A DNA stretch of 64,000 nt from Candidatus Fermentithermobacillaceae bacterium (GTDB lineage: Bacteria > Bacillota > Sulfobacillia > Fermentithermobacillales > Fermentithermobacillaceae). Positions 12,442 through 57,743 of the stretch are shown here, one piece after another. Position numbers and translations under genes: made by a program. The stretch covers positions 1-64,000 of the forward strand of contig DUSI01000022.1 in NCBI GenBank assembly GCA_012842685.1, in the 5' to 3' direction. Each line of letters opens with the position of its first letter. Positions within the stretch are counted from its first letter, which is position 1. The notes below the pieces were generated by a model. It did no database searches and was not told the DNA's origin. It worked only from the letters and a program-made list of their open reading frames with translations.

Positions 12442-15400
12442 TCAGATGAGCCGGAGTTCGCGGCCTCTGCGTGCCGCCTGGACCCGCCCGCTTACTCCCA
12501 GCTTCCCGTAGATGCTCTTTATGTGGGTTTTTACCGTGTTGACGGTGAGGCTCAACCGCTCGGCGATCTCCTTGTTGGAAAGCCCGCTGTCTATGAGCGC
12601 AAGGATCTCTACTTCCCGGTCTGTGAGGCTCTCTACAGGCTGCAAACCTACGCCCTCGCCTTCTACTCTCAAGACCTCGGAGAATGCCCTGGCGTAGTAG
12701 GGCTTGCCAGCCAGCCTTTGGAGGGATTCCATCCGCTCGCCGGTAAAAATCCCGGGGATCAGCGCATTTTCAAGGTAGAGGACTCCTGCCGGGATCCCCT
12801 GGGCAAAGAGCGGTACGCAGGCTATGGATTTCGGTCTTTTCTGCCTGAGGTACTTGTCTCTGGCGAATACTCCGGGGTTGTCCCCCCGCACCGTAACCGG
12901 TTCGAGGGTCCTGAACACAAAACGGGCCACCGCCCTTGAGAGCATGTCCGCATCGTCAATATGCACAGGCTCCAGGAGCTCTCGCGCCCTTTGACCGGCT
13001 TCCTTGGTGAAACAGACGTATAGGTCGTCGTCCCGCTCAAGAAGTAGGCAGCCCCTGGTCGCGTAGACCATATCCATTGCGGCTCCGAGGAAGGAAATGA
13101 GCGTGTTTCGTGGTTCCATCTCCTCAGGAGGGTCGCCATTCCCAACCCTCTCTTCCTGAGCACCGTCTCCCTCATCCCCCTGAGCATTTCCTCCGCGGGC
13201 TGAGAGTATGGTCCTTATGAGGTCAGCTGAGATCTGCACCTTCTCCGCATCCTCAGAAGAACCGTCCACCAGATCAGGGTACCGCCTTTTCAGGTGCTGT
13301 GCCTTTGCCCAAGCACCCCACTTCTCGTACAGCCTGCAGGCTTCATTCATGGACGCCCTCGCCTCATCGAGCATCCCCAACCCGAGACAGCAGGCCGCCT
13401 TGAGTTCAGTCGCTATCGCCTGATCCTGCAGGTATCCGTTTTGACGGGCGGACTCTATGGCGCTTTCGTAGAGACTGGCGGCTTCCCGCGCTTTCCCCTT
13501 TACCCTCAAGGCCTCTGCGCTTACCAGGAGGTATTTGTGGCGGAAGTTTTCGGGGCACGACACAGCCCATTTACGCAGTCTCCCCAGGTTTTTCCCGAGA
13601 ATCCTCTCAAGGCCCAAGCGCCTTCCCGGAGATACGTGCCCGTATAGACCCGCAATGGAGAGAGAATGGTAGTAAACACATTCCGCTGTGATTACAAACC
13701 CCATTATGGCGCCCAGGCATCCCTCTATCCTCTCCATGAGGCCCAGGGCTTTTTCGTATTCTCCCTTGAGGTAGCTGAGGTGCATCTCGGCGAAGAACCG
13801 GGTGGCAAGCGCGGCTTTGTCGCCCTCTTCGAGCCCTTCTATGTCCCACCCGCCTGGAGAGAGCCACGTATTCCAGTCGCCGAGGATACACGTCACTTTG
13901 TCGTATATCCTGGCATTTGCCTTGAGGTTCTCGTGTCCCACCTTGTCACCGTACTCGGCGCACCTCTTTACTTCTTCCCGTACTTCCGCAAGGGGCGTAC
14001 CGGCTAAGTACTTGTGCTCCAAGATGGCTACTCGGGCCCACCCGGCGATGAGGACCTCGCCGCCCCTTAAGGCATAATCGAAGGCCTTCTGGAGGTACTC
14101 GAACCCCTCCTTAAGGTGCCTGGTCCAGTGGCTTATGATGGCACCGAATGTGAAGTAGACCACTGATTTCGTGAAGCTAGAGCCGTATTTTTCAACGACA
14201 GAGATCGCCGCTTTTCCGAGCTCGTAACCTTTGTTATAGTTTCCCAGCACGCTGCCTTCGGCGATCCCGAACCCTATGTAGCCTATGCCGGCAGTCTCGG
14301 TAGCCCCGTATTCCAGGGAGTGGTTGCCCGCTCTTATAGAGACAAAAGGGTAAAGATCCGGGTAGTTGATGCTGCTCACCAGGATGAGCTTTACCAGGAG
14401 GTCACTTATGGTTCGCTGCACGCCCGGTGCCATCTCCGGAATCCTGACCAGGTCCTCTACCTTCTTCCCTAGCGTCCGGCACTTGTAGAGGAACATCTCT
14501 CTCAAGTAGTCGAGGAGACCTGGACGCACGGGGATTTTCATCCCTAGATCTCTCAGCGTGCGTATGCCTATCTCCAGAGCCTTCTCCTGTTCTCCGGTAG
14601 CCGTATAGAGCAGCATTTTCATGCTGTTTATGCCAGCTCTCTCTTCATCCGTCCGGGCGTGTTCGATGAGCTCGTCGAAGAGCCTCTCGGCCCGCGCTGT
14701 CCCTCCCAACATGTACTCGCACTGGGCACAGCCCAGGTAGAGGCCGAAAGAGAGCTCGTAGTGCTCTTCCCACGCGTTTGCCGGTAGGAGGGAAATACCT
14801 GCTTGGAAGTAGCTCAAAGCCGAATCATAAGCAACATACTCCCTGGCCTTGCGACCTGCCCTGAGGTTGTAGTCGGCAAACCTGAGTCTCTCTTCTTCCT
14901 TCGAGACAAACTCAAGACCCCGGTTGATGTGGTCCATGATGGAGAGGAGCATATCGTCGAGCTCATCCGGGCTCGCTCTCCCTAGGAGGATCTCGCCGAA
15001 CCTGAAGTGAGTCTCCCGCCTTTCTTCATCGCTAAACAGGGAGTAGGCGGCTCTTTCGATCTCGTCGTGGACGAACTCAAACTTGACCTCTCCGCCTTCT
15101 GACGTTTGGGCCAGTACAAGTCCTTCCCGCATCGCGGGGAGCATCAGCTCTCTTATCTCCGTGGCGCTCTTCCCCAAGAAATCCGACAGCATCTCCGCGC
15201 TGAAAGAGTGCCCCAGGCAAGAGGCGACTTTCATGAGTCCCAGCGTATCTTCGGGGAGCCTGTCAAGCCTCTTCATTATGAGCCCGGACATCTCGCCAGG
15301 AATCTCAAGACGTTCCAAGAGGCGGGTATCCCATTCCCAAGATCCCGTCTCTTCGCTCAGCCTTATAATGTTTTCGTCATAGGCCGCCTTTAGCGCCTGA

Positions 15401-17064
15401 CCGAGGAAGAACGGGTTCCTGTACGTCTTCCGTCCGAGTATGTCTGCGATGGCCTTGGTCTCTTGGGGAGAAGAGGAAAGCGTGTCGGCAACAAACTCGG
15501 CGACGTCTTCCTCGCTCAGCGGGTCGAGGTGTATCTCGGTGATAAGCCCTTCTCCGCGAAGTTCCTGGATGAATGCCCAAAGATGATCCGCCTCGCCCAC
15601 CTCGCTATCACGGTAGGCACCCACGATAAGGAAGTACTTTGGCTTTCGCGCGAGGTACCTTATGAGCTGTAACGAAGCCATATCGGCCCATTGGAGGTCA
15701 TCGAGGAACACTACGAGCGGGATCCTTCTCTTGGCGAAAACGCCGATCAAGTCTCCAAACGTCATAAACAGGCGGTTCTGGGCCTCTCGCGGCGTAAGGG
15801 GCTCTGGCCTCGGCTGGGGACCTATTATGAGCTCCATATCCGGCAGAAGCTCGGCGAGCAGGGCACCGCTCCGGCCTACCGCGCGGAGCATGTCGCTTCG
15901 CCATATCTCCAGATCCCGTTTGGGGCCGGTTATGATCTGCTTAACCACCATCTCCACGGCGCTCACTATGAGCGCATAAGGGGTGTGCTGCTTGATGCGC
16001 CCCGCCTTTCCGTAGCCGTAATAGCCCTTATCCATCGCGGCAGGTCTCAAGACCTCGTTCACCAGCATCGTTTTCCCGATGCCGGCCTCGCCGCTTACGA
16101 GCACGAGTCCCCCGCCCCCTGCGCAGACGTCTTCGAACGCCCTGCGCAGTAGCCGCGCGTGCTCCTCTCTGCCCAGGAGCTTGCGGGAGAGGGCAAAGCG
16201 GGCGTGGGAGGCCAAGGCAGGTTCCATCACGTGCCCGGTATATCCCGGGAAATCCGCGCCGTATACTTGCGACCTTGCCAAGCTTAGGTCCCTTACGACC
16301 TCAAACGCGTTCTGGTACCTTTCTTCAGGAGTCTTGGAGAGCATCTTTTGGACGATCGCGGAGATCTCTCGCGGCACCTTCGGGTTCGAGGCCGTAAGGG
16401 GCACGGGTTCCTGAGTAGTGTGTGCCCAGACCCACTCAGAAGGACTCCTGGCCCGGAAGGGCAGGTGCCCGCTCAAGAGCTCGTAAAACACGACCCCCAG
16501 GGAGTAGAGATCGGCCCTGTGGTCAACGGAGTATGCCTCAAGTCCGGTCTGCTCAGGGGCCATGTACGCCGGGTTCACCGACTGGAGAATGGCCCTGAGG
16601 TCAGTGGGCCGGAATTCGGGGGCAAGCCCTGTGAAAAAAACCTCGCCGGTATCTGGGTGGATGAAGATGTTCTCCAGGCTTACGTTCCTGTGGAATATGC
16701 CCTCCTGGTGTAGCCTGCCCAGTATCTCAGCGAGGCGAACCGCTATGTCAAGAAAGCCGGGGACTTCCAAGGGCCTCTTGCGGGTGTACGTAGAGAGGGG
16801 TACGGCTCCCGTATCTTCGAAAACGAGGGCCAGCGTAAAACCTGCGTCGATCAGTTCGATTACCCTGGCGATCCCCGTCAGTTTCAGGTCTCGAGCGGTT
16901 TCGTATTCGTAGACAAAACCCGTGACATCAGACAGGGAAACCGGCTCGTGCTTCGGGACTTTGATGAAAACCGGCAGGTCTCTTTTCAGAGAAGAGCCAG
17001 AATATACCTTTGTCCTGAAACCATCCAGAACCAGGTCGCGGACTGTGTACCCGGGTAGATCCAA
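12442..17064 (-). CDS. Giant regulator: kinase-like domain, AAA ATPase, helical repeats, LuxR HTH
   Basis: 1540 residues. Residues 5-265 have a Ser/Thr kinase fold: Lys35 in VFIKVPK, a YMAPEQT segment near 167 and DHRADLYSLG. The catalytic loop reads HRNVSLEN (125-132) instead of HRDxKxxN, and the DFG position reads FTG (144-146), so catalysis is probably lost. An AAA ATPase follows, with Walker A GEAGIGKT (325-332) and Walker B VVFLDD (451-456). The long middle is TPR-like helical repeats, then a GAF-like stretch around 1320-1450, then a LuxR-type HTH (about 1480-1540, LTDREVEILALI ... VNTVKTH). A soluble signal-integrating transcription regulator is likely. It starts with TTG and diverges from the XRE gene at 17293. 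The ligand is unknown. Confidence 0.85.
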   Translation of the reverse strand: MDLPGYTVRDLVLDGFRTKVYSGSSLKRDLPVFIKVPKHEPVSLSDVTGFVYEYETARDLKLTGIARVIELIDAGFTLALVFEDTGAVPLSTYTRKRPLEVPGFLDIAVRLAEILGRLHQEGIFHRNVSLENIFIHPDTGEVFFTGLAPEFRPTDLRAILQSVNPAYMAPEQTGLEAYSVDHRADLYSLGVVFYELLSGHLPFRARSPSEWVWAHTTQEPVPLTASNPKVPREISAIVQKMLSKTPEERYQNAFEVVRDLSLARSQVYGADFPGYTGHVMEPALASHARFALSRKLLGREEHARLLRRAFEDVCAGGGGLVLVSGEAGIGKTMLVNEVLRPAAMDKGYYGYGKAGRIKQHTPYALIVSAVEMVVKQIITGPKRDLEIWRSDMLRAVGRSGALLAELLPDMELIIGPQPRPEPLTPREAQNRLFMTFGDLIGVFAKRRIPLVVFLDDLQWADMASLQLIRYLARKPKYFLIVGAYRDSEVGEADHLWAFIQELRGEGLITEIHLDPLSEEDVAEFVADTLSSSPQETKAIADILGRKTYRNPFFLGQALKAAYDENIIRLSEETGSWEWDTRLLERLEIPGEMSGLIMKRLDRLPEDTLGLMKVASCLGHSFSAEMLSDFLGKSATEIRELMLPAMREGLVLAQTSEGGEVKFEFVHDEIERAAYSLFSDEERRETHFRFGEILLGRASPDELDDMLLSIMDHINRGLEFVSKEEERLRFADYNLRAGRKAREYVAYDSALSYFQAGISLLPANAWEEHYELSFGLYLGCAQCEYMLGGTARAERLFDELIEHARTDEERAGINSMKMLLYTATGEQEKALEIGIRTLRDLGMKIPVRPGLLDYLREMFLYKCRTLGKKVEDLVRIPEMAPGVQRTISDLLVKLILVSSINYPDLYPFVSIRAGNHSLEYGATETAGIGYIGFGIAEGSVLGNYNKGYELGKAAISVVEKYGSSFTKSVVYFTFGAIISHWTRHLKEGFEYLQKAFDYALRGGEVLIAGWARVAILEHKYLAGTPLAEVREEVKRCAEYGDKVGHENLKANARIYDKVTCILGDWNTWLSPGGWDIEGLEEGDKAALATRFFAEMHLSYLKGEYEKALGLMERIEGCLGAIMGFVITAECVYYHSLSIAGLYGHVSPGRRLGLERILGKNLGRLRKWAVSCPENFRHKYLLVSAEALRVKGKAREAASLYESAIESARQNGYLQDQAIATELKAACCLGLGMLDEARASMNEACRLYEKWGAWAKAQHLKRRYPDLVDGSSEDAEKVQISADLIRTILSARGGNAQGDEGDGAQEERVGNGDPPEEMEPRNTLISFLGAAMDMVYATRGCLLLERDDDLYVCFTKEAGQRARELLEPVHIDDADMLSRAVARFVFRTLEPVTVRGDNPGVFARDKYLRQKRPKSIACVPLFAQGIPAGVLYLENALIPGIFTGERMESLQRLAGKPYYARAFSEVLRVEGEGVGLQPVESLTDREVEILALIDSGLSNKEIAERLSLTVNTVKTHIKSIYGKLGVSGRVQAARRGRELRLI

Positions 17065-49964: not shown

Positions 49965-50206
49965 CCAAACCCTCTCCTTCCGGGAAAAACACGCTGTAAG
50001 TATTCTACCCTATAGTGGACCGGCCTTGTCCACGCCTGGTTCTCTGCAGCTTCAGCCGGTCCGGCAAGCTCGCATCCTACGCCCGGAGATGTCTGTCACC
50101 ATGTTCGGACGCCCCAGACACCCGTGAAGTTAGCTGTGACAAAACTGATAGGCGCCTCATACAATGCTCCGGTGGCTGCAGACGACATAACACGGGAGGA
50201 CTACTC

Positions 50207-52695: not shown

Positions 52696-54006
52696 ATGAA
52701 ATTGCGGGAAGATCTCGCCAAAGCCATCGAGGAGGCGCACCGCCTCGCATCTACCGGGACCCTGTGGCCCGGATGGGACATCGCCGTGACGCCCGTCATC
52801 CTCCACGGCCGCGAGATATCTTACATCCTGGGGCATCCGAGACCGCCTGAGGGGTACGTAGAGGTGGCCCCCGTCGCAGGAAGACGCACATACATGGGGC
52901 CAACATTTCCCGAGATGGCCGCGAATACGGTGCGCGTGATCGCGGGCGCAGTGAGCGCGCTCGTGGCCTACCCGGAAGAAACGCTCATAGATACCGATGT
53001 ATTCGCCAGGCTTATCCTTCACGAGTGCTTCCACGTTCACCAGCTCGTGGCCCTGTCTTCCGTGAGCCGTCCCGATTTTCGCGTGATGGAGAGGTATCCC
53101 GAGGATGATCCCCTGAACAACGCCATGAGCATAGTAGAAAACAAGATACTCTGCTCGGCCTTAAGGGAGTGGCCCCCGAGTAAGGCCTCAGACAAGGTAA
53201 AGGCTTTGGCAGGGGAGTTCATCGCCGTCAGGATGGCCAGGCACGACTATCTGGCGTCCAAGGATCTTGGGAACGTCTGCACCTACGAAGAGCTTTCCGA
53301 GTTCAACGAAGGCACCCCGACGTATATTGAGGTCAAGGCGGGGAAGCCGGTCTCGGAGATAATCGACACACTCCAGGAGGCCAATGTCGCAGGCAAGTGG
53401 GCCTCCTACCGCCGCTTCTACGCCACCGGTGCAGCTACGGGGCTGCTGCTCGACTTCTTACTGCCTGATTGGCATCTCCGTCTCGCGCAAGGCGGGTGCA
53501 CCCTCCAGTCTCTCATCCGAGAAGCCGTGTGCTCACAGTGGAGCGGAGTGTCAGGGGCAGACGTTTCGGCGATCCTCCGCGCCTACGACTACGACGCGAT
53601 CCTCGCGTCGGAAGAGAAAAGCGCAAGGGAGCGCCAGGCGCAGATAGAGGCCATGCTCCGGGAGCTTTCGGACGGACCCGGGGTGCGGGTGGAAATCGAA
53701 ATACCGGAAGGAGCCTTCACCCTCTTTAACCCGAGCAGAGTAATCGTAGTACGGCCGGGCGTTAAGCTTCATCCGACCCTGTCGGGCCTCAGAGGCGAAG
53801 GCGAGTTGGCGGTGGATATAACCCGTCTTTGCTTGGAAGACGGTCCCGCGCGTAGGATGGTTGTCCGGGTACCGGAACTTCAGGTGCCTCAGGACCAGGG
53901 GTCGCGCCTCACATCCCTGTCTGCGGAAGGTTTGGCGATCTCCGCCCCAAAGGGGCTTGAGGTTACAAAGGGGCCAGACGGCACGTACCGCATACGACCG
54001 AAATGA
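52696..54006 (+). CDS. Putative zincin metallopeptidase of unknown family
   Basis: 436 residues, no signal peptide or membrane segment. Zinc motif HECFH at 109-113 (HExxH), inside FARLILHECFHVHQL; 92 residues on, FNEGTPTYIE gives Glu205, the expected third ligand of a gluzincin. The C-terminal ~110 residues are beta-rich (VEIEIPEGAFTLFNPSRVIVVRPG) and may bind substrate. ATG with GGGGGGCC about 5 nt before it. Downstream of feoB by 103 bp on the same strand, but not clearly linked. The substrate is unknown. Confidence 0.7.
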   Translation: MKLREDLAKAIEEAHRLASTGTLWPGWDIAVTPVILHGREISYILGHPRPPEGYVEVAPVAGRRTYMGPTFPEMAANTVRVIAGAVSALVAYPEETLIDTDVFARLILHECFHVHQLVALSSVSRPDFRVMERYPEDDPLNNAMSIVENKILCSALREWPPSKASDKVKALAGEFIAVRMARHDYLASKDLGNVCTYEELSEFNEGTPTYIEVKAGKPVSEIIDTLQEANVAGKWASYRRFYATGAATGLLLDFLLPDWHLRLAQGGCTLQSLIREAVCSQWSGVSGADVSAILRAYDYDAILASEEKSARERQAQIEAMLRELSDGPGVRVEIEIPEGAFTLFNPSRVIVVRPGVKLHPTLSGLRGEGELAVDITRLCLEDGPARRMVVRVPELQVPQDQGSRLTSLSAEGLAISAPKGLEVTKGPDGTYRIRPK

Positions 54007-54056: not shown

Positions 54057-54141
54057 ATCTTTCTGTCGCGCCCCCTGCAGGGTCGCCCTAGTTTACATAA
54101 TTGCATATCATATCGGGACGGCACTTGAGGAGGTGAAGACA

Positions 54142-54435
54142 GTGAACCAGAGGCCCGTATCTGCACAGAGCTACTACAGGCCGGGCGTGCCTCTTCCCGC
54201 GCCGGGCGCTGAGTCTCAACAGTTCGTCTCTTTTCCGCCCTTCATCTTCATCCCGTTCATATTCCGCATCCCGCCCAGGCGTTTCATCTTCATCCCGAGA
54301 AGGCGCCGGCGGCGCTATGGGGTAGACACTCAAGGCGCAGAATTCGACGGTTGCATCTACACTCTCAGCGAGGCGGAATGGGAGTGCATGCAGAGGCTCG
54401 GTATCCCCGAGTGCCCCGTGGTGGTTGACAGGTAG
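54142..54435 (+). CDS. Small Phe/Ile/Pro- and Arg-rich protein of unknown function
   Basis: 97 residues from GTG at 54142, which has GAGGAGG 8 nt upstream. Residues 29-56 are built almost only of Phe, Ile, Pro and Arg (FPPFIFIPFIFRIPP, then RRFIFIPRRRRRR). That is too proline-rich for a standard membrane helix and too hydrophobic for a disordered tail. The C-terminal 35 residues are acidic with Cys in DGCIY, EWECM and PECPV. Base composition matches a real gene. A spore-coat or surface protein is one guess; I do not recognise a family. Confidence 0.6.
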   Translation: MNQRPVSAQSYYRPGVPLPAPGAESQQFVSFPPFIFIPFIFRIPPRRFIFIPRRRRRRYGVDTQGAEFDGCIYTLSEAEWECMQRLGIPECPVVVDR

Positions 54436-54584: not shown

Positions 54585-56642
54585 TCACGTTCTTTCGGCT
54601 TGTGCTTCGGGTCTTTGACTATGACCCGCTTTCCTCCCTCTATCGTCCCTGAGGAGCCGCATGCCGTTCAGTATGACGAGCATTACGCTGGCTTCGTGGA
54701 TGAGCATGCCTCCGGCCAGAAAGACCACCCTGCCTATGACTCCGGCCAGGAGGAGGAAAACTACGGCCACCGCAAACACGACATTCTGGCGGACAACTTT
54801 CAAGATGCGCCTGCTCAGGCTTATGGCCTCCGGGACTCGAGTGAGGCTATCTGTCATGAGGGCGATGTCCGAGGTCTCGATGGCCACTTCCGTGCCCGAG
54901 CCGCCCATGGCGATGCTCACGTCGGCCGCCGCCAGGGCGGGGGCATCGTTCACTCCGTCCCCTACCATGGCCACCACGTGGCCGGCAGACTGGAGCTCGC
55001 GAATGGCCCGGACCTTTTCTTCCGGCAGGAGCCCGGCCCTCACCTCGTCGATGCCCAAGAGGGATGCCACGCGCCGCGCCGCTTTTTCGTTGTCGCCCGT
55101 GAGCATGACCGTCTTTCTGACTCCCGAGCTCTTGAGGTCAGAAACCAGTCCCTCGACTCCGGGACGCAAGGGATCGGCGATCCCTATGAGCCCCACAGGG
55201 ACACCGCCCAAGGCCACGAACGCCACGGTCTGGCCCGCGGCTTCCCGGCGAGAAGCAGCTTCTTCTTGTTCGGGTGTGAGACTCACACTTCTGGACCTAA
55301 GGAGTCTCCTGTTTCCTACGAGCACAGTACCGTAATCCGTCTCGGCCGCCGCGCCGAGCCCGGGAAGGAGCGACCACTCGCGGGCTTCCACGGGCGCGAT
55401 TTCCTGCTCCCTGGCGTAATCCAAGATGGCTTTGGCCAGGTGGTGCTCGGAGCGCAGCTCCGCGGCAGCAGCCAGGGCGGTAACCCAGCGTTCGGCTAGT
55501 CCCTCTCTTGCCGGTTCACCTGCGCGCTCACCCGCCGGTTGGGATTCTCTCTCACCGGCCCGCCCGTCCGCCCGGCTGTCACCAATGGCACCGGTGCGAT
55601 CTACTTTGGAAAACCAGGCCGGAGCTTTCGAGAAAGCTTCCACGCCACTCACCTTGGGCCGCCCAAGCGTGAGCGTACCGGTCTTGTCGAATGCCACCAC
55701 GTCAACTCTGCCGATACGCTCCAGCCGCTCACCGCCCTTTATGAGGATGCCTTTCCCGGCAGCATGCCCGAGCCCCGCGACAACGGCGACGGGAGACGCC
55801 ACGACCAGGGCTCCTGGGCATCCGATGACCAGGAAGGTCAGGGAGAGCTCTACATCGCGGGTGAGGAGATATAGGCCTGCCGAAAGACCGATGATCAGGG
55901 GCGTATACCATGCGGCAAACCTATCGAGCATCCTCTGGACTCTGGGCTTCTGGTCCTGGGCCTCGGCCACCAGGTACAAGATGCGGCTGAACGTCGTATC
56001 CGCACCGACCTTCTGCGCCCGGACTTCGAGATATCCGACCTGGCTCACACTGCCGCCGAGGACCTGATCTCCAGGGCCGACTTCCTGAGGTAAGGGCTCG
56101 CCCGTCAGGGCCGATGTGTCCAAGGATGCCCTTCCCTCGAGCACGACTCCGTCTACAGGGACCCTGTCGCCCGGAAGGACCACAACCACGTCTCCCGGCG
56201 ATATCTCGTACGCTTCAACGACTTGGATGCCGTCCTCTCTCTTTACCCTGCCCATCCTGGGGGCGAGGTCGATGAGCGTCTTGAGGGCGGCACGCGTCTT
56301 GGCCAGGGTCAGGCTCTCGAGATATCCCCCGAGCACGTAGAGGAAGGTGACGGCGGCGGCCTCCCAGACCTCACCGATCCACAGGGCCCCGGCTGCGGCT
56401 ATAGTCACCAACAACGGGATGCTCAGCTGCCTCGCGAGGAGCCTGCCGATTGCCTCACGCGCAACCCTGAGGCCTGCCACTACAGCGGCAGCCGTCATGA
56501 GTCCCCGGAACGCAGCTTCAGTGCCCAGGCCAAGGCCCCTCAGGCCCCACGCCGCGACAATGAAAGCCCCGGACATTGAGACGGTCAGGATCTCAGCGTG
56601 ACGAGAAGCCCAGCCGTACATCCTTCGGATGGCAGAATCCAT
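54585..56642 (-). CDS. Heavy-metal P-type ATPase with CPG motif
   Basis: 685 residues. No HMA domain at the N terminus. Membrane helices follow, then the transport motif CPG at 275-277 (LVIGCPGALVV) where CPC is usual, the phosphorylation site DKTGTLTLGRP (319-323), an unusual Gly/Ala/Glu/Arg-rich insert at about 340-386 (GERESQPAGERAGEP), then SEHHL (398-402) where SEHPL is usual, GDNEKAARRVASLLG and GDGVNDAPALAAAD. ATG at 56642 has GGGGGG 6 nt upstream. It follows a free HMA-protein gene (50 bp) and a Crp/Fnr gene. The metal is uncertain: Zn/Cd/Co type or another. Confidence 0.87.
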   Translation of the reverse strand: MDSAIRRMYGWASRHAEILTVSMSGAFIVAAWGLRGLGLGTEAAFRGLMTAAAVVAGLRVAREAIGRLLARQLSIPLLVTIAAAGALWIGEVWEAAAVTFLYVLGGYLESLTLAKTRAALKTLIDLAPRMGRVKREDGIQVVEAYEISPGDVVVVLPGDRVPVDGVVLEGRASLDTSALTGEPLPQEVGPGDQVLGGSVSQVGYLEVRAQKVGADTTFSRILYLVAEAQDQKPRVQRMLDRFAAWYTPLIIGLSAGLYLLTRDVELSLTFLVIGCPGALVVASPVAVVAGLGHAAGKGILIKGGERLERIGRVDVVAFDKTGTLTLGRPKVSGVEAFSKAPAWFSKVDRTGAIGDSRADGRAGERESQPAGERAGEPAREGLAERWVTALAAAAELRSEHHLAKAILDYAREQEIAPVEAREWSLLPGLGAAAETDYGTVLVGNRRLLRSRSVSLTPEQEEAASRREAAGQTVAFVALGGVPVGLIGIADPLRPGVEGLVSDLKSSGVRKTVMLTGDNEKAARRVASLLGIDEVRAGLLPEEKVRAIRELQSAGHVVAMVGDGVNDAPALAAADVSIAMGGSGTEVAIETSDIALMTDSLTRVPEAISLSRRILKVVRQNVVFAVAVVFLLLAGVIGRVVFLAGGMLIHEASVMLVILNGMRLLRDDRGRKAGHSQRPEAQAERT

Positions 56643-56692
56643 GGTCAACCCCCCTTCTCCGGGAGCAAGGGACAGTCTGTGCAGACTTCTTC

Positions 56693-56920
56693 CTAGACCT
56701 TTGCTGGAAGCACCGAAGTAAGTTCGAGGCTAAACTGGTGGAATAGGTTCCTCAGTTTTTCTTCGTCCAGGACGGCCTCGTCGTACCGCAGGTTCAACGC
56801 GCCTGCCGCGTAACTCACTCTGGCCTCATGGACGCCCGGGAGCTGGGATGCCGCCTTCTCGAGCTTCGCCGCGCAGTTCGGACAGGATAGGTTCGCAAAA
56901 ATGTACATCTTTGTCTTCAT
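56693..56920 (-). CDS. Free-standing HMA-domain protein
   Basis: 75 residues with one ferredoxin-like HMA fold. Metal site CPNC (SCPNCAAKLEKAASQLPG), the pattern CxxC shared with copper chaperones and P1B ATPase N-terminal domains. ATG with GGGGGG about 7 nt upstream. It is directly before the ATPase gene, which lacks its own HMA domain, so it may act as a detached N-terminal domain. An FNR-type palindrome lies 88 bp upstream. Confidence 0.9.
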   Translation of the reverse strand: MKTKMYIFANLSCPNCAAKLEKAASQLPGVHEARVSYAAGALNLRYDEAVLDEEKLRNLFHQFSLELTSVLPAKV

Positions 56921-57007
56921 AGCCGGACCCCCCTTGAGTTCCTCACTTTGAGAACCTTCTTGATTACATCTCCAAAGACATCATTCCACGGGGAGGCCGG
57001 CGGGAGC

Positions 57008-57023
57008 ATTGACGTAGGTCAAT
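57008..57023. promoter_or_regulatory. Crp/Fnr-type operator upstream of the metal-transport pair
   Basis: Perfect palindrome ATTGAC-N4-GTCAAT (core TTGAC-GTAG-GTCAA), 88 bp before the HMA start and 34 bp past the stop of the Crp/Fnr regulator gene. The spacing and half-sites match the FNR-superfamily pattern TTGAx-N4-xTCAA, so the neighbouring regulator is the obvious candidate to bind here. Confidence 0.7.
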
Positions 57024-57056
57024 CTCGAGGAGAAACGCGTGAGGAAGATCAAGTGG

Positions 57057-57743
57057 TCACGGGCGCGCTACGGACCTCAGCCGGTCAATATCGAGGATCA
57101 GCACAGTTCGCGGGCTAGTCTGACGGATGATGCCTTGGTCGGCCAGATTCCCGAGCCGCCTGCTCAGGGTTTCAGGAGTAGTCCCCAACCTAACCGCCAT
57201 CTCGGCCCACGAGGAGGAGATATTCACAACGGTGCCTTCAGGAGTTTCGTGCCCCGAGGCGGCCAACCTCAATATCTCGGCCGCCAGGCGCTGACCCACT
57301 TCCCTGAGCCCCAGGTCGGCTATGAGCTGCTCGGCAGCGGAAAGACGCTTTGCAAGCTCCTCCACCAATCGAAGGGCCGCATCGGGATTCCTGATGACCT
57401 CCGAAACCGCATTGCGCGGCAATACACATGTCTCGGTATCTTCAGCAGCCACCACATCCCCTTCCATGACAGTTTCATGAAAGAGGGCCAGTTCCCCGAG
57501 AAACTCTCCCGGCCCGAGGGTACGCACGATCTGCTCTCTTCCGCTTAAGGACGTGTAGACCACATTGAGCCTTCCGCGGTGCACGACGTAGAGGGAATCG
57601 AGGACCGACCCTGCGGGTACGACTACTTCTCCCTTCTTGTAGACCTTGTGGCGCATCTCCTTGCCGATTCTCTCGAGTTCGCCGGGTGAAAGCACCCTGA
57701 ACACCGGAACCCCTGCAGCGCAAGAAGGAATATGCATGGACAA
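57057..57743 (-). CDS. Crp/Fnr-family transcription regulator
   Basis: 228 residues. Cyclic-nucleotide-binding-type beta barrel (about 15-125: PVFRVLSPGELERIG, GEVVVPAGSVLDSLYVVHRGRLNVV), dimer helix, then the HTH (WAEMAVRLGTTPETLSRRLGNLADQGII). Cysteines lie at the N terminus (PSCAAG) and in the barrel (ETCVLP); too few and too spaced for an FNR iron-sulfur cluster. TTG at 57743 has GAGGGGG 7 nt upstream. It controls genes by DNA binding; the palindrome at 57008 lies just downstream of it. Confidence 0.92.
   Translation of the reverse strand: MSMHIPSCAAGVPVFRVLSPGELERIGKEMRHKVYKKGEVVVPAGSVLDSLYVVHRGRLNVVYTSLSGREQIVRTLGPGEFLGELALFHETVMEGDVVAAEDTETCVLPRNAVSEVIRNPDAALRLVEELAKRLSAAEQLIADLGLREVGQRLAAEILRLAASGHETPEGTVVNISSSWAEMAVRLGTTPETLSRRLGNLADQGIIRQTSPRTVLILDIDRLRSVARP

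Follow-up and report, generated by a model that had tools for sequence, protein, structure and literature searches.

The small coat and exosporium proteins of Bacillus and Clostridioides are the closest described systems to the gene analysed here, and share with its family a patchy distribution and a promoter of the sigma-K/sigma-E type (excerpts of PMC3789822). According to the same excerpts (PMC3789822), sigma-E and sigma-K of C. difficile have -10 sequences in common and differ in the -35 element, where sigma-K promoters have AC and sigma-E promoters ATA; they also give CATATAAT as a sigma-K -10. In B. subtilis the sigma-K motif consists of two blocks 14-16 nt apart (excerpt of PMC517825). 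Unlike those coat proteins, the family described here has no Pfam or NCBIfam model and forms a small domain of its own. Small size and biased composition are, we presume, further points of likeness. SpoVM, a short amphipathic helix, offers a second comparison, which we assume would extend to a possible role in a surface layer of the forespore, whereas the domain modelled for our protein is rich in beta strands. We propose, with a probability of roughly 0.6, that the gene product is a small structural component of the spore envelope, in its coat or outer layer, which the mother cell makes late in sporulation. The grounds for this reading are the promoter class, the composition and size of the protein, its patchy distribution and the context of one relative beside YmaF and BsuPI domains. 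The protein family is new and unnamed, of a kind already known.

The window is the whole 64,000-nt stretch of DNA that was analysed, part of a contig (C11) of a 1.89-Mb draft genome that is 97.5% complete. Its features at this locus are as follows:

54086-54112, + strand: conserved promoter block, ending in a sigma-E/sigma-K-type -10 element, CATATCATA (54104-54112)
54127-54135, + strand: Shine-Dalgarno sequence GAGGAGGTG
54142-54435, + strand: small-protein gene, a 97-aa open reading frame (ORF) with a GTG start, A-type member of the family
54232-54315, + strand: stretch of only F, I, P and R, residues 31-58, holding strands 1 and 2 and R53-R58
54256-54300, + strand: predicted beta hairpin FIFRI-PP-RRFIFIPR, residues 39-53, at the site of the family motif F.IFRI.P.GFFV
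54346-54432, + strand: conserved C-terminal half with strand 69-75, helix 77-86 and the last strand; I..(L/I)SE.E(W/Y)..(M/L).R.GIPE..V

All 28 residues from 31 to 58 (FPPFIFIPFIFRIPPRRFIFIPRRRRRR) are F, I, P or R. The initial annotation had recognized this oddly composed middle at residues 29-56, where the count is 26 of 28, and had it end in six arginines, which are R53-R58; the runner-up 28-residue stretch reaches 16 of 28 among 58 predicted window ORFs (20,020 residues; at least 100 aa, picked longest first, some probably not genes). The tail (residues 59-97) is mildly acidic, with eight D/E against two R and no K, and has cysteines at 71, 82 and 91, as that annotation had also noted. Within the Shine-Dalgarno sequence, GGAGGTG is invariant in four aligned rows. 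An alternative start, GTG 54040, would give 131 aa; the 20 bases 5' of it hold no purine-rich ribosome site, and the 34 extra codons would sit on the conserved promoter block.

Three of the four genomes of the window's genus, its own included, carry the gene, the fourth genome being 83% complete, and a genome of another genus (G009) has a copy at about 40% identity. Copies in two sister species are 67% and 68% identical, the second value coming from a partial copy, and changes relative to these congeners fall on codon positions 1, 2 and 3 as 20/15/45 (97 codons) and 18/12/40 (78 codons). Because relatives exist at these identities and the changes lie mostly at third positions, the ORF is not a chance frame. 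The -10 element and the ribosome site are both conserved among relatives. Judged from sequence, 54142-54435 is a real gene, in line with what had been argued from its good ribosome site.

The family falls outside curated models: the window protein and the relatives scanned fail to match Pfam-A or NCBIfam. For the window protein there is no Pfam match at E up to 1 and no NCBIfam match at E up to 10, and five relatives give none in Pfam and a single NCBIfam match at E 0.2, far under the cut-off. An improved profile finds homologues in 18 of 396 genomes of a phylum sample, the window's own included; one of the 18 (G295; E 0.0018, one stop) is counted as doubtful, and the match in G434 covers just 18 profile positions. 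Such a search for homologues and their neighbourhoods had been the check proposed initially, and it reveals no neighbour gene kept across the families inspected. A first, four-sequence profile, with a limit of E 0.01, had picked out 19 of 398 genomes, of which four or more were chance matches; its matches in G270, G274, G444 and G485 were lost with the better profile. Members occur in the genome families f1, f5, f60, f68, f79, f89, f96, f136 and f158 (our numbering). Of 154 genomes in the class, 33 were matched by a single sequence with an E of 0.1 or less, and 5 by the better profile with an E of 0.01 or less; eight weak class loci, two of them the same place, were set aside after their frames were read and the family motif was found to be absent. 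Contigs of close relatives yielded no match to the single window sequence and two records, DUUV01000007 and DULO01000081, to the alignment. There was no family match in viral contigs, none in plasmids by tblastn with the window protein, none in phages with a compact relative (G225) and none in PHROGs with the window protein, while G225 gives a chance PHROGs row at E 0.21; the best PDB match by sequence has E 0.39. In G210 (L071/L095) and G016 (L088/L100), gene copies carry an in-frame stop or a frame change, which we read as decay or assembly errors; the damaged G210 copy keeps a -10 element, CATACAATG.

Family members have a common core: first F.IFRI.P.GFFV, then a loop that varies in length, then I.R.SE.EY.FLRR.GIPE..V. 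Around this core the composition varies: among aligned members the run of six arginines occurs only in the window's genus, f68 members and G009 have three to five arginines ahead of the first strand, and members from f96, f79, f89 and f158 have no such run. Cysteines are absent from the domain of G009 and of three f68 members and are placed elsewhere in G340. The odd composition of the window protein is an extreme form of a conserved small domain. A second, B type has the pattern VFHCVFR...YFLVVQDE...TIVRLS.EEFAFLRR.GIPECRV and has the C-terminal half in common with the A type (hhalign probability 97.9 over 33 columns). The A gene is second in a tandem pair, after its B-type paralogue, in G201, G273, G328 and G524 (all f96), A and B genes are divergent in G466 (f158), and only the B type was found in G352 and G239. 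Against the class, the B-type profile has four matches, three of which, in the window genome G000 and its congeners G001 and G002, fall on the C-terminal part of the A-type protein itself; the fourth, in G110, has E 0.0029.

An AlphaFold2 model of the window protein has a mean pLDDT of 61.5, with best blocks reaching 86 and residues 1-32 and 60-66 below 50, and places strands at 39-43, 46-53 and 69-75 and a helix at 77-86. The model of G225, built from 23 sequences, has a mean of 75.4 with 30 residues at 90 or above, and shows strands 13-21, 25-33 and 46-50, helix 52-60 and strand 64-67. Both models show strands there; the modelled domain is small, with beta-beta-beta-alpha-beta order, and so the F/I stretch probably supplies its first hairpin. 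The initial view that the composition resembles neither membrane helices nor usual disorder thus holds partly: in the models the F/I stretches form beta strands and residues 1-32 are disordered. Compared with solved structures, the G225 model has no significant match (best Foldseek E 0.47, best VIA-align Z 3.8); complex I subunits, SPT16 and PlyCB were rejected as fold matches, their rows being weak and tied. This absence does not show the fold to be new.

The -10 element of the window gene, CATATCATA, lies 29 nt 5' of the start and is of the form found in sigma-E/sigma-K regulons. Together with its counterparts CATATCATG, CATATGATG and CATATTATG, it occupies a position 29-33 nt 5' of the start in G000, G001, G002 and G009. 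At the expected distance there is no recognizable -35 element, AC or ATA, before the window gene (block 54086-54112), and AC is likewise absent in the congeners G001 and G002; the window gene therefore lacks the -35 expected for sigma-K. Directly 5' of the -10 element, the window gene and its congeners share a conserved GTTTACATAATTG, which may be an activator site. The 20-base pattern of the promoter block, allowing up to three mismatches, occurs at one site in the window's own genome, and it is therefore not a repeated operator.

Read by eye, CATANNNTR recurs within 130 nt 5' of family genes. At 16 of 20 heads of family transcription units it lies 15-80 nt 5' of the start. Of 188 control ORFs, 9 have it there; these controls, each of 150 aa or more, were predicted longest first in the window and 17 loci, and some may not be genes. 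The Fisher p-value of 2.5e-14, like those that follow, is too good, because the rule (R as last base, 15-80 nt) was fixed after the upstream sequences had been read and a single genus (f96) supplies six of the 20 heads. Shuffled upstream sequences yield a mean of 0.69 of 20 heads, and controls with an intergenic upstream (80-nt gap) match in 5 of 83 cases (3.5e-11). Counted per bacterial family, six of nine have the element (p = 3e-6). Widening the distance to 0-121 nt gives 17 of 20 heads against 12 of 188 controls, and a strict CATANNNTA, which we take to be the -10 consensus form and which was not found in the literature searched, gives 10 of 20 against 5 of 188 (1.3e-8). The excess of -10 elements at family heads holds in every form tried. 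Not among the 20 heads are A genes located behind a B gene, the domain gene of G194, which comes after YmaF, and G340, whose upstream ends at 27 nt; the YmaF head of G194 is counted, as a miss. The other misses are G520, G466A, with a -10 only at about 120 nt, and G016; G520, G016 and G194 represent the three of nine member-holding bacterial families without the element. Matching control ORFs include a YtxC gene.

NACN followed after 15-17 nt by the -10, which is the sigma-K arrangement, stands at 12 of 20 heads against 3 of 188 controls (5e-12). The tandem B/A pairs of L097, L098 and L101 (G328, G201 and G273; f96) have one sigma-K-like promoter, before the B gene. From these upstream sequences, expression of the family in the mother cell late in sporulation appears highly probable. 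The same expression is likely for the window gene, where our confidence is somewhat lower than for the family because the -35 element is missing.

In the window, the small gene lies among genes for FeoA, FeoB, a P-type ATPase and an HMA protein. G001 has the same order, and so does G002, apart from one inserted gene and a split of the locus over two contigs; G009 and the more distant stretches inspected do not. Elsewhere, speE/speB-like genes (named by eye) are neighbours in G173 and G216, and G201 and G520 have YtxC, listed among sporulation genes in an excerpt of PMC3533761, at about 2 kb or less from their family genes; in G201 the tandem pair is flanked by an mreB-like gene on one side and ytxC/thrS on the other, where mreB and thrS were identified by eye. 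No YtxC was seen by eye in the stretches of G273 and G328.

A context with YmaF and BsuPI domains is seen in G194:

L070:463-2078, - strand: family domain-BsuPI fusion gene (463-1722) and His-rich YmaF gene (1752-2078)

Here the family domain is the N-terminal part of a 419-aa protein, which continues with a BsuPI domain (PF12690; E 9e-17) and a C-terminal region without a Pfam match, and the fusion gene follows 29 nt behind the YmaF gene (PF12788; E 2.9e-18). YmaF and BsuPI are thus neighbour and fusion partner of this relative, and the window protein matches neither model. In C. difficile, CD3620, 'similar to YmaF', appears in the sigma-K regulon table with no promoter in its row, and we read the '+' there as found in spores by proteomics (table as excerpted from PMC3789822).

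The window's genome has the coat-foundation gene spoIVA, matched by SpoIVA_ATPase at E 2.5e-108. Of 14 genomes from the window's family 11 carry SpoIVA, counting G002, whose match is partial and falls below the cut-off, and a relative by name, Ca. Fermentithermobacillus carboniphilus, is predicted to sporulate (excerpt of PMC10215811). Across the phylum sample SpoIVA is present in 335 of 396 genomes, so common that finding it in 17 of the 18 genomes with a family member proves nothing (318 of the 378 without one have it too; p = 0.33). In the window's family, seven of 14 genomes (G003-G008 and G010) have SpoIVA but yielded no member of the protein family; the protein is therefore not needed for sporulation in general. 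The literature searched contains no report of a family member in spores, a search that is weak for a family without a name, and no proteome or microscopy of the window organism.

We infer a spore location, which the initial annotation had put forward just as a point to check and which is backed indirectly by the family promoters and by the YmaF/BsuPI context of G194. In the proposed mechanism, RNA polymerase with sigma-E or sigma-K would transcribe the gene in the mother cell, and the F-rich beta hairpin would let the protein pack on the surface of the forespore, with sheet-to-sheet assembly as the probable mode. Arginine patches, in the window's genus and f68, could bind acidic partners, whether coat proteins, polysaccharide or membrane; the cysteines of the window's genus could cross-link the protein. 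The BsuPI fusion suggests that the domain can also serve as an attachment module. Generalized from this one fusion, the domain would be a coat block when alone, a two-component layer as an A/B pair and a display for cargo on the spore when fused to BsuPI, an idea that we consider rather unlikely.

Promoters tell when and where a protein may be made, not its final location, and the product could instead be a mother-cell protein that is expressed in sporulation and forms no part of the spore, for example a small protein that assists or regulates an enzyme, with the short C-terminal SE.EY.FLRR.GIPE motif as a possible binding surface. We consider this unlikely, since none of the neighbour genes recurs throughout the families inspected and the variable F- and R-rich composition would better fit a structural role. 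The hydrophobic, Arg-flanked F/I stretch of the window's genus and f68, behind a mother-cell-type promoter, would also suit a small protein that coats the outer forespore membrane in an anchoring role like that of SpoVM. Such a protein seems a good deal less probable: the models give strands and no helix in that stretch, a transmembrane helix at residues 31-50 is unlikely because they include five prolines and three arginines, and the relatives in f96, f79, f89 and f158 do without the Arg run.

Position between feoAB and a heavy-metal P-type ATPase, in an order kept in G001 and partly in G002, and three cysteines would point to metal homeostasis. The absence of that order from G009 and the more distant stretches inspected and the lack of conservation of the cysteines make this very improbable. 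Still further down the scale, with a negligible probability, comes a low-complexity open frame that is no gene; its extreme composition and a 166-aa antisense ORF that spans it would fit, against which stand homologues with conserved motifs, third-position bias, a conserved promoter element and a ribosome site. The small structural protein of the spore envelope is our preferred reading. Firmicutes outside the Bacillaceae may lack known coat-building proteins, and the attachment module, if true, would be an unrecognized way to build and decorate spores there. Sequence, modelled fold and promoter together define a family that supplies concrete candidates, and comparison of upstream promoters can suggest a sporulation stage for small proteins that are absent from family libraries.

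Other observations concern the surrounding window. At 50158-50166 (+ strand), CATACAATG with GACA 16 nt upstream lies 40 nt before the proposed feoA start, ATG 50207, and the equivalent place in G002 has CATAAGATG, without AC; feoAB may be under sigma-E/sigma-K control. A table excerpted from PMC8745062 gives exosporium as the putative location of a Moorella FeoB. Upstream of the small gene, 52696-54006 (+ strand) encodes a 436-aa protein with no Pfam or NCBIfam match, in which a LILHECFHVHQ stretch resembles an HExxH metallopeptidase site; its relative in G002 has 473 aa, and that in G001 is truncated or frame-changed. Downstream, 54585-57743 (- strand) encodes a probable heavy-metal P-type ATPase, a small HMA protein (56693-56920) and a CRP-type regulator (57057-57743), which also occur together in G002. 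Farther away, 12442-17064 (- strand) encodes a 1539-aa fusion of a Ser/Thr protein kinase, an AAA_16 ATPase, TPR, GAF and a LuxR-type DNA-binding domain.
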